Shown: positions 14,401 to 19,267 of the stretch, one piece after another
Layout: each line of letters starts with the position of its first letter
Position numbering within the stretch: position 1 is the stretch's first letter
From: Albidovulum marisflavi
GTDB taxonomy: Bacteria > Pseudomonadota > Alphaproteobacteria > Rhodobacterales > Rhodobacteraceae
Direction of reading: 5' to 3'
DNA length: 64,000 bases
NCBI RefSeq assembly: GCF_025751435.1
Contig: NZ_JAOWKY010000005.1
Span: 1 to 64,000 of the forward strand
The notes under the pieces: model-generated
What the model saw: only the letters and a program-made list of their open reading frames with translations
Told to the model about the DNA's origin: nothing
Database searches by the model: none
Translations under genes and position numbers: made by a program

Positions 14401-14437
14401 ATTTGTGATCACACGTTGAAAGCGCGTGATCACAAAT
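14401..14437. promoter_or_regulatory. Paired palindromic operator upstream of sucC
   Basis: ATTTGTGATCAC at 14401-14412 is repeated as its exact reverse complement GTGATCACAAAT at 14426-14437. Each arm is itself centred on the palindrome GTGATCAC; the centres are 21 bases apart, two helical turns. The same arrangement is present upstream of sdhC. It most likely binds two dimers of one regulator, possibly the GntR/FCD protein encoded at 2666-3316. Confidence 0.7.
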
Positions 14438-14559
14438 CACCATCGCCCTTGTTTGCCGAGGATTCACGGGATTCGCGGCGGTGCACGGCGACCCCGAACT
14501 GCGGGCGTTCGCGTTCCAGGGCGGAGGGTCAGCGCTGTGACCGGGTGGTGGCGCGGCGC

Positions 14560-14596
14560 TTGAAAAAGAAAACGCGCCACGAACGGTGGCGCGTTT
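14560..14596 (-). terminator. Rho-independent terminator after mdh
   Basis: On the minus strand an 11-bp perfect stem (AAACGCGCCAC/GTGGCGCGTTT) with a 5-base loop is followed by TTTTCTTTTT-type sequence. It lies 35 bases beyond the mdh stop, separating mdh from the sucC promoter. Confidence 0.85.
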
Positions 14597-14630
14597 CCAA
14601 AGGTGACGTATCGTCCCCTGCCGAAAAGCC

Positions 14631-15593
14631 TCAGGCGAGCGACGGGTCGATCGACTTGCACGCGTCCACGAGACCGTTCACCGCGGCGACGGACTTGTCG
14701 AACATCGCCTGTTCGTCCTTGTTCAGCTTGATGTCGACGACGCGTTCGATGCCGCCGGCGCCGATGATCGTGGGCACGCCGACATACATGCCCTTGAGCC
14801 CGAGAGCGCCGTCGACGTAGGCCGCGCAGGGCAGAAGGCGCTTCTGGTCCTTCAGGTAGGCCTCTGCCATCTCGATCGCCGAGGTGGCTGGCGCGTAGAA
14901 GGCCGAACCGGTCTTCAGCAGGCCGACGATCTCGGCCCCGCCGTCGCGGGTGCGCTGGACGATCGCGTCCATGCGTTCCTGCGTGGTCCAGCCCATGTCG
15001 ATCAGGTCGGGCAGCGGGATGCCACCGACCGTCGAATAACGGACAAGCGGGACCATCGTGTCGCCATGCCCGCCCAGCACGAAGGCGGTGACGTCGCGCA
15101 TCGAGACGTTGAACTCGAGGCTCAGGAAGTGGCGGAAGCGGGCCGAATCAAGCACACCGGCCATGCCGACGACCTTGTTGTGCGGCAGGCCCGAAAATTC
15201 GCGCAGAGCCCAGACCATCGCGTCAAGCGGGTTGGTGATGCAGATCACGAAGGCGTTCGGCGCATGGGCCTTGATGCCCTCGCCAACCGATTTCATGACC
15301 TTCAGGTTGATGCCCAGAAGGTCATCGCGGCTCATGCCCGGCTTGCGCGGTACGCCCGCGGTCACGATGCAAACGTCCGCACCGGCGATATCTTCGTAGG
15401 AATTCGTGCCCTTGAAGGAGCCGTCGAACCCCTCCGACGGCCCGCTTTCAGCGATGTCGAGCGCCTTGCCCTGAGGCGTGCCCTCGGCGATGTCGAAAAG
15501 GACAACGTCCCCAAGTTCCTTGATCGCGGCAAGATGGGCGAGTGTCCCGCCGATCTGTCCCGCGCCGATGAGCGCGATCTTCGGTCTGGCCAT
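14631..15593 (-). CDS. mdh: Malate dehydrogenase
   Basis: 320 residues of the lactate-dehydrogenase-like malate dehydrogenase group. It interconverts malate and oxaloacetate with NAD. The Rossmann motif [10 protein letters not shown], the mobile loop [13 protein letters not shown] with substrate arginines, and the catalytic [10 protein letters not shown] are visible. The start chosen ([12 protein letters not shown]) matches the family; the frame stays open far upstream but that part is not protein-like. Its own terminator suggests it is transcribed apart from sucC. Confidence 0.96.
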
Positions 15594-15741
15594 GATTGGT
15601 CTCCGGCTCCAGTGGAATGACGCGGCCTTGGGTAGCGGCAAGTTGCCCTTCGCGCAAGCCCGCTGCGGCGCGGCATGAATCTTCGGCTTTCTCGGGAGCG
15701 GCACGATTGGTAGGAAAACGGCATGGCCGCAGGAGAGAGGC

Positions 15742-16482
15742 GTGGAGGGAATCGGGTTCTGGGTTCTGGCGATCGCCGCATCCTGTTTCGTCGGCTTGTC
15801 CAAGGGCGGGTTGCCAGCGATCGGAATGCTGGGGGTGCCGGTCATGGCGCTGGCGATCTCTCCGATCACGGCGGCCGGCTTGCTGCTGCCGGTCTATGTC
15901 GTGTCCGACATGTTCGGCCTCTGGGCCTATAGAAGGAACGTCGACCGCAGGGTTCTGGCGATTCTGGCTCCATCGGCGACCCTTGGCATAGCCTTGGGCT
16001 GGGCTACTGCGGCTATTGTGCCGGAACGAGCCGTAACGGGGCTGGTCGGGGGGATCGGCGCCGCGTTCGCGCTGAACCTCATCCTGCGCGGGACGCCGGT
16101 CGGTGCCGCGCGTCCGGCGCGGGTGGCACCGGGGCTGTTCTGGGGAACGCTGACCGGTTTCACCAGTTTCGTCAGCCATGGCGGGGCGCCGCCCTACCAG
16201 GTCTACGTCCTGCCCCTGAAGCTTGAGAAGATGGTATTCGCGGGCACCTCAACGGTTCTGTTCGCCTACGTCAACGCAGCCAAGCTGATTCCCTACTGGG
16301 CGCTCGGGCAGCTCTCGCTGACCAACCTCAAGGTCGCTGCCTTCCTGATGCTGCCCGCGTCGCTGGCTGTGCTTGCAGGCGTCCGCCTGGTGCGGGTGCT
16401 TCCTGCGGACCTGTTCTTTCGCTTCGTGATCTGGGCGCTTCTGCTCATATCCACGAAACTCCTATGGGACGCCGTCGCCTGA
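15742..16482 (+). CDS. TauE/SafE-family membrane exporter
   Basis: 246 residues with about eight hydrophobic helices. The N-terminal half has the family feature [20 protein letters not shown] and the second half the matching [20 protein letters not shown]. Family members are thought to move sulfite, sulfoacetate or related organic anions out of the cell. It starts at GTG after AGGAGAGAGGC. It diverges from mdh and precedes mcl2 by 136 bases. The substrate cannot be told from sequence. Confidence 0.85.
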
Positions 16483-17482: not shown

Positions 17483-17516
17483 ACACAGGCATGCTTGGTC
17501 CAGCAGGAGGTTCGAC

Positions 17517-18074
17517 GTGAATATTCTGATCCTCGGTCTCGTTCTCTGGATCCTGCCCCATCTTTTCAAGCGCATCGCGCCCGGCCTCCGTGCGAGGATG
17601 GGAAACGCGCCGGGCAAGATGCTGGTCACTGTCCTGTCGCTGGCCGCGATCGCGCTGATGGTCATTGGCTATCGCCGGGCTGAGTTCGTCCCCCTGTACA
17701 TGCCCGCTGCCGGTATGGGGCACCTGAACAACCTGCTGATGCTGGTCGCCATCTTCCTGATGGGGGTCGGCCATTCGCGCGGCGTTCTTCGGGCTCGGAT
17801 CCGCCACCCGATGCTGACTGGCGTTTTGATCTGGGCGGTCGCGCACCTCCTGGTCAACGGGGATATGGCTTCGGTCGTCCTGTTTGGCGGGTTGGGCGGC
17901 TGGGCGATCGCGGCAATGCTGCTGATCAACGCGCGGCAGACCTGGCAGCGCCCCGAGCCGGGCACGATCCGCGGCGACGCCATCAACCTTGCGGTTACGC
18001 TGGTCCTCTGCGCGATCATCGCGGGCATTCACATCTGGCTTGGGGTCAATCCCTTCGCGGGAACCTATGGCTGA
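17517..18074 (+). CDS. NnrU-family membrane protein
   Basis: 185 residues with five or six transmembrane helices, starting at a GTG preceded by AGGAGG. The HLLVNGD and HSRGVLRARIRHPMLTG segments are characteristic of NnrU proteins, linked in other bacteria to nitric oxide or nitrite reduction and distantly to isoprenoid-modifying membrane enzymes. No denitrification gene is nearby. It lies between mcl2 and mch; I recall the same arrangement in R. sphaeroides, but its role there is unknown to me. Confidence 0.8.
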   Translation: MNILILGLVLWILPHLFKRIAPGLRARMGNAPGKMLVTVLSLAAIALMVIGYRRAEFVPLYMPAAGMGHLNNLLMLVAIFLMGVGHSRGVLRARIRHPMLTGVLIWAVAHLLVNGDMASVVLFGGLGGWAIAAMLLINARQTWQRPEPGTIRGDAINLAVTLVLCAIIAGIHIWLGVNPFAGTYG

Positions 18075-18096
18075 GCATAGACAAGGGGACAGGGCG

Positions 18097-19128
18097 ATGA
18101 AGACCAATCCGGGCCGGTTTTTCGAGGACTACACGCTGGGTGAGGTGATTTCGCATGCCGTTCCGCGCACCCTGTCGGGCGGTGAAAGGGCGGCCTACCA
18201 CGCGCTTTATCCGGCTCGCCACGCGCTGCATTCGTCGGACGAATTCGCACGCGCCTGCGGATTGCCTGCAGCGCCCTTTGACGATCTGGTCGCCTTTCAC
18301 ACGGTTTTCGGCAAGACGGTTCCCGACATCTCGTTGAACGCGGTGGCCAATCTTGGCTACGCCGAAGGGCGCTGGCTGAAGCCGGTCTGGCCGGGTGACA
18401 CGATCAGGTCCGAAAGCACCGTGATCGGTCTGAAGCAGAATTCCAACGGCCGGTCCGGTGTCGTCTACGTGCGCACGCGGGGCCTGAACCAGAGCGGGGA
18501 GCCCGTGCTGGAGTACGTTCGGTGGGTCATGGTACGCAAGCGCGACCTTGACGTCCCTGCGCCAGCGCCGGTTGTTCCGGAACTGAAAGATTTCGTACCC
18601 GCATCCTCGATTTCGGTGCCCGAAGGGTTGGATTTCTCCAATTACGATTTCACGCTTGCCGGGGAACCCCATCGCTGGGGCGACTACGCCGTGGGTGAGA
18701 GGATTGACCATGTCGATGGCGTGACGGTCGAAGAGGCAGAGCACATGCTGGCAACGCGCCTGTGGCAAAACACGGCCAAGGTGCACTTTGACCGGACGCA
18801 GCGCGAGGATGGCAAGCGTCTCATCTACGGCGGCCATGTGATCTCGCTCGCGCGGGCGCTCAGCTTCAACGGGCTCGCGAACGCGCAGATGATCGTCGCG
18901 CTGAACGCGGGCGCGCATGCCAATCCCTGTTTTGCGGGTGACACGGTCCGCGCCTGGTCGGAGGTGCTGGACAAGGCCGAAACCGGCGCGCCGGGTGTCG
19001 GTGCGCTCCGGCTCAGGCTGGTGGCGGTCAAGGACGGCGCTGCGCCCTTCACGCTGAAGGACGAGGCGGGAAAATACAGCCCCGAGGTTCTGCTGGACCT
19101 CGACTACTGGGCCCTGATGCCACTCTGA
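18097..19128 (+). CDS. mch: Mesaconyl-CoA hydratase
   Basis: 343 residues with two MaoC/hot-dog halves. It hydrates mesaconyl-CoA to beta-methylmalyl-CoA in the ethylmalonyl-CoA pathway. The first half starts GRFFEDYTLGEVISHAVPRTLS, the second GDYAVGERIDHVDGVTVEEAEH; these and the length match characterised Mch proteins. The MKTNPGRFFED start follows AGGGCG after the nnrU-like gene. Its neighbours mcl2 and sdh connect the product to malate and succinate metabolism. Confidence 0.9.
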   Translation: MKTNPGRFFEDYTLGEVISHAVPRTLSGGERAAYHALYPARHALHSSDEFARACGLPAAPFDDLVAFHTVFGKTVPDISLNAVANLGYAEGRWLKPVWPGDTIRSESTVIGLKQNSNGRSGVVYVRTRGLNQSGEPVLEYVRWVMVRKRDLDVPAPAPVVPELKDFVPASSISVPEGLDFSNYDFTLAGEPHRWGDYAVGERIDHVDGVTVEEAEHMLATRLWQNTAKVHFDRTQREDGKRLIYGGHVISLARALSFNGLANAQMIVALNAGAHANPCFAGDTVRAWSEVLDKAETGAPGVGALRLRLVAVKDGAAPFTLKDEAGKYSPEVLLDLDYWALMPL

Positions 19129-19236
19129 GGTGACGGCGCGCACCATGGCAGGGCAAGCCTGCCCCTGCCGCCGTGCCGGTGCGAGACTCGGTCGCCCCCG
19201 CGCCCGGCGCATGATCGGCCGGTGTGGTGGCAATGA

Positions 19237-19267
19237 TGTGATCACACATTTTAATTGCGTGATCACA
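19237..19267. promoter_or_regulatory. Paired palindromic operator upstream of sdhC
   Basis: TGTGATCACA at 19237-19246 and CGTGATCACA at 19258-19267 have centres exactly 21 bases apart, as in the sucC operator; the flanking bases (GCGTGATCACAAA on the right side) also match. It lies 126-156 bases before the sdhC start, in the 264-base gap after mch. A TTGACG further downstream may be a -35. This suggests common control of succinate dehydrogenase and the suc operon. Confidence 0.7.

Follow-up and report, generated by a model that had tools for sequence, protein, structure and literature searches.

We examined the first 64,000 nucleotides of contig NZ_JAOWKY010000005.1 of Albidovulum marisflavi (Rhodobacteraceae), which we call the window. 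Pairs of the palindrome GTGATCAC lie upstream of sucC and of sdhC, the first genes of two gene sets of the tricarboxylic acid (TCA) cycle. Comparison of sequences suggests, with a probability of roughly 85%, that these paired palindromes are the operators of an orthologue of AkgR, a GntR-type regulator with an FCD domain that is encoded at positions 2666-3316 (gntR), and that this regulator activates suc and sdh and represses its own gene. The regulon is a known one, that of AkgR, found here in another genome of the family.

Paired palindromes upstream of sucC and sdhC

The window contains seven copies of GTGATCAC, starting at positions 2649, 14405, 14426, 19238, 19259, 19753, and 42509. Just 0.96 copies were expected from dinucleotide shuffles, and 0 of 100 shuffles reached seven. 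When the whole genome (3,818,134 bases) was searched, exact matches to GTGATCAC-N13-GTGATCAC were found in two places only, before sucC and before sdhC; the reversed control pattern had no matches in the same genome. The initial annotation of this DNA had reported both pairs, with centres exactly 21 base pairs (bp) apart and with shared flanks, and both the spacing and the flanks are as it described. It had also placed a single copy directly against the ATG of gntR: the copy is there, but 9 bp (2657-2665) intervene. Two further copies were said to lie inside coding sequence. The one at 19753 is indeed within sdhC; the other begins at 42509, not 42508, and falls in a frame with a permease domain.

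The same annotation had suggested a motif search of related Rhodobacteraceae, and this search showed that the pair is conserved. Across 296 genomes of the family (295 genera), 273 contain the pair with any spacer of 1-30 bases, and 258 contain it with the N13 spacer (a 21-bp step); in most of the loci that we compared, the pair stands before sucC or sdhC. A reversed control pair was present in 1 of the 296 genomes (hand scan). By hand count, 456 of the 562 pairs in these genomes have the N13 spacing. As for the regulator, a protein match was found in 293 genomes at E ≤ 1e-10 and in 274 at E ≤ 1e-50 (hand count). If the latter matches are treated as orthologues, with a cutoff that was set after viewing the table, then by hand count 270 genomes have both the orthologue and the pair, 19 have neither, and 7 are discordant (Fisher p = 3e-23, uncorrected for the kinship of the genomes). 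Thus, apart from these 7 genomes, the comparative tests support the earlier proposal that one nearby GntR regulator serves both suc and sdh.

Broader sets of genomes gave a similar picture. At the level of the order, the N13 pair was found in 191 of 196 genomes, all of the window's family. At the level of the class, 16 of 241 genomes contain a pair of any kind; these comprise all 4 Rhodobacteraceae in the set and 12 of the 237 remaining genomes. Regulator matches at E < 1e-90 are confined to the same 4 Rhodobacteraceae. The pair in one of the 12 (G431) immediately precedes a different FCD-like match with 28% identity; similar operators may therefore serve related regulators. We also considered 10 named genomes: all 10 contain the orthologue, and each contains two matches to the pair pattern. 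In Rhodobacter capsulatus, one of these two matches has the N13 spacer; the other has a 19-base spacer and is on another contig.

To describe the operators more closely, we used loci selected for the presence of a pair or of a protein closely related to the regulator. The spacer is N13 in 30 of the 32 distinct sucC upstream regions with a pair (N12 in 2) and in 30 of the 31 for sdhC (N12 in 1). Read outward, the outer flank starts with A in 59 of 60 sucC flanks and in 52 of 60 sdhC flanks; inner flanks vary more. Triple arrays with 21-21 bp steps precede sucC in four of ten genomes that were chosen for their extra pairs (G122, G170, G252, and G645). Seventeen pairs in the fetched loci were assigned to neither sucC nor sdhC. 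Among the extra N13 pairs, one is upstream of fumC, which encodes a class II fumarase, the next step of the TCA cycle (G037; L261 2294-2322), and one precedes a thiolase gene by about 200 bp (G263; L262 1501-1529). In the genomes that have at least three N13 pairs, some of the remaining extra ones overlap long open frames.

The regulator and its identity

The product of gntR has the GntR-type helix-turn-helix and the FCD domain that are expected of the regulator of an AkgR regulon, both with Pfam scores over the cutoff. A structure model (predicted local distance difference test, pLDDT, of 74.8) and a fold search also place it in the FCD class of GntR proteins, and McbR of E. coli is its nearest solved structure, both by sequence and by fold. 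N137, H141, H184, and D206 are invariant in 16 aligned orthologues. Metal-binding FCD proteins usually have one Asp and three His at those positions, and the alignment suggests that the metal site of this regulator may be altered. The gene follows a YgjP-like peptidase gene (ygjP) across a 33-bp gap and is transcribed towards lpd.

The initial annotation had mentioned both AkgR and CceR (which we take to be RSP_0981 and RSP_1663 of R. sphaeroides) and had left the choice undecided. Two papers bear on this. In PMC4344238, the GntR protein RSP_0981 is the predicted controller of RSP_0967-6 (succinyl-CoA synthetase), RSP_0974-6 (sdh), and RSP_0965-62 (2-oxoglutarate dehydrogenase). In PMC6365646, GTGATCAC is among the sites of AkgR, which is termed an activator. 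In the window, the GTGATCAC motif is found upstream of sucC and of sdhC. Orthology needed testing because RSP_0981 is numbered far from RSP_0962, at the lpd end, while gntR of the window adjoins lpd. We therefore turned to Cereibacter johrii, which is close to R. sphaeroides and was picked because the two have an identical reaction-centre protein. The window's regulator is 77% identical to its best match in C. johrii, where the gene order is ygjP, gntR, sdhBADC, ..., mdh, sucCDAB, lpd. There, gntR lies beyond sdhB, and this order fits the numbering from RSP_0962 to RSP_0981. Because the sequence, the ygjP neighbour, the gene order, the motif, and the targets all agree, the choice falls on AkgR, of which gntR is very probably the orthologue.

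CceR was rejected for the palindromes: we scanned four intergenic stretches for the GTT-N6-8-AAC inverted repeat that was published for RSP_1663 and found no complete copy. That scan yielded only TTGGCGCTAA, at 19288 near the sdhC pair. This box (window 19288-19297) lies between the pair and the -35-like block of sdhC, and it resembles GCGC-centred boxes in some relatives. It is possibly the site of a second regulator; PMC4344238 predicts that RSP_1663 acts on sdh.

We also considered whether a CRP- or FNR-type factor might bind the pairs, since TGTGATCACA resembles TGTGA...TCACA, and both TGTGA and TCACA half-sites are present in the sucC-proximal and sdhC-distal boxes. This is very improbable. 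The half-sites of CRP operators are six bases apart, whereas these half-sites touch. Furthermore, the pair follows the GntR gene across genomes, and R. sphaeroides is stated to be without a predicted CRP analogue (PMC4344238).

Linkage between gntR and its targets is common but not universal. We compared 24 stretches that contain gntR: it is beside lpd in 12 of them (the window, L202, L203, L204, L211, L212, L214, L219, L221, L222, L224, and L225) and beyond sdhB in 4 (L199, L200, L209, and L223). The other 8 showed none of the suc, sdh, or lpd genes; these stretches were either short (L201, L205, L207, and L228) or reached about 20 kb to one side (L213, L215, L216, and L220). The place of gntR thus shifts, being beyond sdhB, beside lpd, or apart from both, while the operators stay.

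Promoter distances and the autosite

We examined the blocks that could be -35 elements in upstream regions with N13 pairs. For sdhC, a GTGAC block was found in 28 of 30 regions. It lies 61-64 bp from the proximal centre in 26 of these, and the two outlying distances (52 and 82 bp) are shifted by about -10 and +20 bp. For sucC, a GTTT block was found in 23 of 30 regions, at 48-50 bp in 20 of them and at 43, 58, and 70 bp in the others; the search covered a limited upstream part, so these distances are softer. The 70-bp outlier is the distal pair of a triple array. If the blocks are -35 elements, then the proximal dimer would be near -85 (suc) or -98 (sdh) from the start of transcription. Such upstream positions resemble those of class I activators.

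Alternatively, the regulator could repress suc and sdh through the pairs. Repression is a common role of GntR/FCD proteins, and the geometry of the site at gntR itself, described below, is repressive. However, in most of the upstream regions the -35-like block follows the pair at a distance of 48-64 bp, which would be unusual for steric repression, and AkgR is called an activator in print (PMC6365646). We consider repression of suc and sdh to be unlikely.

The autoregulation that the initial annotation had proposed would act through the single GTGATCAC copy, or autosite. We examined 42 distinct gntR upstream regions, after dropping loci with fewer than 90 bases upstream, with no ATG within 10 codons of the expected start, or with identical sequences. 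TTGA is present 34-37 bases before the ATG in 41 of the 42; the stop codon of ygjP forms part of this TTGA and may help its retention. An exact GTGATCAC is present in 18 of the 42, and in each of the 18 a copy starts 16 or 17 bases upstream of the start codon (a second copy is present at one locus). Random 92-mers drawn from these loci contain an exact GTGATCAC in about 1.5% of cases. The 42 loci come mainly from the nearest relatives of the window's protein, along with the named genomes, so 18 of 42 describes this set and is no family-wide rate. Given its position and the upstream TTGA, the autosite covers the place of the likely -10 element. This arrangement suggests repression, and the transcript of gntR probably begins at or near the ATG (that is, it would be leaderless).

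The coordinates of these features are given in Table 1. Away from the first pair, the genes are sucC, sucD, a frame of 300 amino acids with no Pfam match, sucA, sucB, further frames, and lpd. We infer that the suc set forms one transcript and that the sdh set forms another; sucAB-lpd would carry an upstream motif only if they are on the sucC transcript. Elsewhere in the window, positions 31251-31964 encode a LuxR-type regulator with an autoinducer-binding domain.

Table 1. Regulator, candidate operators and promoter elements, and target genes in the window
Feature	Position	Strand	Basis or remark
gntR/FCD regulator, probable AkgR orthologue, 216 amino acids	2666..3316	+	Pfam PF00392 GntR 60.2 bits, PF07729 FCD 55.6 bits
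Single GTGATCAC autosite over predicted -10 of gntR	2649..2656	.	9 bp before ATG
TTGACC, predicted -35 of gntR, overlapping ygjP stop codon	2629..2634	+	TTGA conserved
Palindrome proximal to sucC	14405..14412	.	seen in sequence
Palindrome distal to sucC, 21 bp from proximal	14426..14433	.	seen in sequence
GTTTTG block, possible -35 of sucC	14354..14359	-	49 bp from proximal centre
Palindrome distal to sdhC	19238..19245	.	seen in sequence
Palindrome proximal to sdhC, 21 bp from distal	19259..19266	.	seen in sequence
GTGACT block, possible -35 of sdhC	19325..19330	+	62 bp from proximal centre
TATTCA, possible -10 of sdhC	19347..19352	+	sequence; TATT-type block likewise placed in many relatives (uncounted)
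sucC, first gene of sucCD-sucAB-lpd	13103..14296	-	NCBIfam succinate-CoA ligase beta
sucD	12214..13098	-	Pfam CoA_binding and Ligase_CoA
sucA (2-oxoglutarate dehydrogenase E1)	8263..11223	-	profile matches
sucB (E2)	6731..8260	-	Pfam 2-oxoacid_dh and Biotin_lipoyl
lpd (E3)	3374..4795	-	profile matches
sdhC, first gene of sdhCDAB	19393..19776	+	NCBIfam TIGR02970
sdhD	19787..20158	+	named by place between sdhC and sdhA; frame kept in relatives
sdhA	20162..21970	+	NCBIfam match
sdhB	22788..23564	+	NCBIfam match

Assessment, proposed mechanism, and known systems

Several observations count against AkgR control of suc, sdh, and gntR through these sites. First, the co-occurrence is imperfect: four genomes have the orthologue without an exact pair (G035, G139, G248, and G258; at 1.7e-57, G248 is a borderline orthologue), and three have a pair but no orthologue was found in them (G018, G105, and G225). 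The two pairs in G105 stand before sucC and sdhC, so the loss of its regulator may be an assembly gap. The fetched stretch of G035 contains gntR and ygjP, with no suc or sdh gene in it. In R. capsulatus, no N13 pair was found apart from the one before sucC, and gntR was not always seen near its targets (8 of the 24 stretches above). Second, the promoter elements are uneven: the -35 and -10 assignments were made by eye, GTGAC is absent from 2 of 30 sdhC upstream regions, and GTTT is absent from the searched part of 7 of 30 sucC upstream regions. Also, the block distances in the window (49 bp for suc and 62 bp for sdh) differ by 13 bp, which is no clean helical turn; the difference is 11 bp if the -35 of sucC starts two bases into GTTTTG. 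Third, the site at gntR exists, but autoregulation is the weaker part of the proposal, as the autosite is exact in fewer than half of the gntR upstream regions and is missing from that of C. johrii. Fourth, orthology to RSP_0981 was judged through C. johrii as a stand-in for R. sphaeroides. Finally, the motif alone names no protein because GTGATCAC is used by other FCD regulators; motifs of this type are probably common to them, and we rejected the motif as proof of the regulator's identity.

This last point raises the alternative that another FCD/GntR paralogue binds the pairs or that several paralogues share them. The genome has 18 FCD matches, including paralogues that are 43% and 31% identical to the regulator, and the 31% paralogue (coding match from C3:208590) has TGTGATCAC about 106 bp upstream, at C3:208476. 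A Pseudomonas regulator that is 32% identical to AkgR has also been proposed to use GTGATCAC (PMC6365646), and the stretches in which gntR stands apart from its targets fit this alternative as well. Nevertheless, we consider it quite unlikely: in the 296 genomes, the presence of pairs goes with that of an orthologue of the neighbouring gene, gntR is beside lpd or beyond sdhB in many of the compared stretches, and for R. sphaeroides the same targets have been linked to RSP_0981 in print (PMC4344238).

If the AkgR orthologue does bind these sites, then each GTGATCAC box would probably be bound by one dimer. The two dimers, two helical turns apart and perhaps cooperative, would occupy the same face of the helix ahead of the -35 element and would recruit RNA polymerase, much like class I activators. 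Succinyl-CoA synthetase, 2-oxoglutarate dehydrogenase, and succinate dehydrogenase would then rise together. At gntR, whose promoter is probably leaderless, the regulator would occupy the single box across the -10 element, keep polymerase out, and so limit its own level.

We also propose, tentatively and at slightly less than even odds, a more general scheme. Phased arrays of two or three palindromes, in exact 21-bp steps, would be kept in helical register with the -35 element, with shifts in spacing of about whole turns; a single site that some lineages retain and others lose would autorepress a leaderless promoter, without a matching change in the TCA operators; and further genes, for instance fumC, could belong to the regulon. 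Our literature search found no description of the 21-bp step, the promoter distance, the triple arrays, or the autosite, although the original AkgR paper, which was outside the search, could hold one.

The Rhodobacteraceae are a large family that includes many marine and phototrophic bacteria, and a single regulator appears to underlie their control of the TCA cycle, with an operator arrangement that 273 of the 296 genomes retain. Constant spacing and a constant distance to the promoter lead to clear, testable predictions about activation by an FCD-type GntR protein, a class that is better known for its repressors. The variable autosite suggests that self-control can be gained or lost while the targets stay fixed.

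Among known systems, NanR of E. coli has the GntR/FCD fold in common with the window's regulator. NanR is cooperative on repeated operator units, but its motif is another one and it represses sialic acid genes. PS417_07240 of Pseudomonas simiae, the regulator of a deoxyribonate cluster, is also GntR-like, and GTGATCAC has been proposed as its site; it is the protein with 32% identity to AkgR, and it differs in its pathway and in having one reported palindrome (PMC6365646). The closest system is AkgR of R. sphaeroides. The parts of the AkgR literature available to us contain no description of the pair spacing or the phasing. AkgR and the window's regulator are alike in their GntR class, in their predicted targets (sucCD, sucAB-lpd, and sdh), and in the GTGATCAC core, and the window shares the ygjP-gntR neighbourhood with C. 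johrii, the close relative of R. sphaeroides. The two arrangements differ in the place of gntR, which is beside lpd in the window and beyond sdhB in C. johrii, and in the single autosite, which is present in the window and not in C. johrii.

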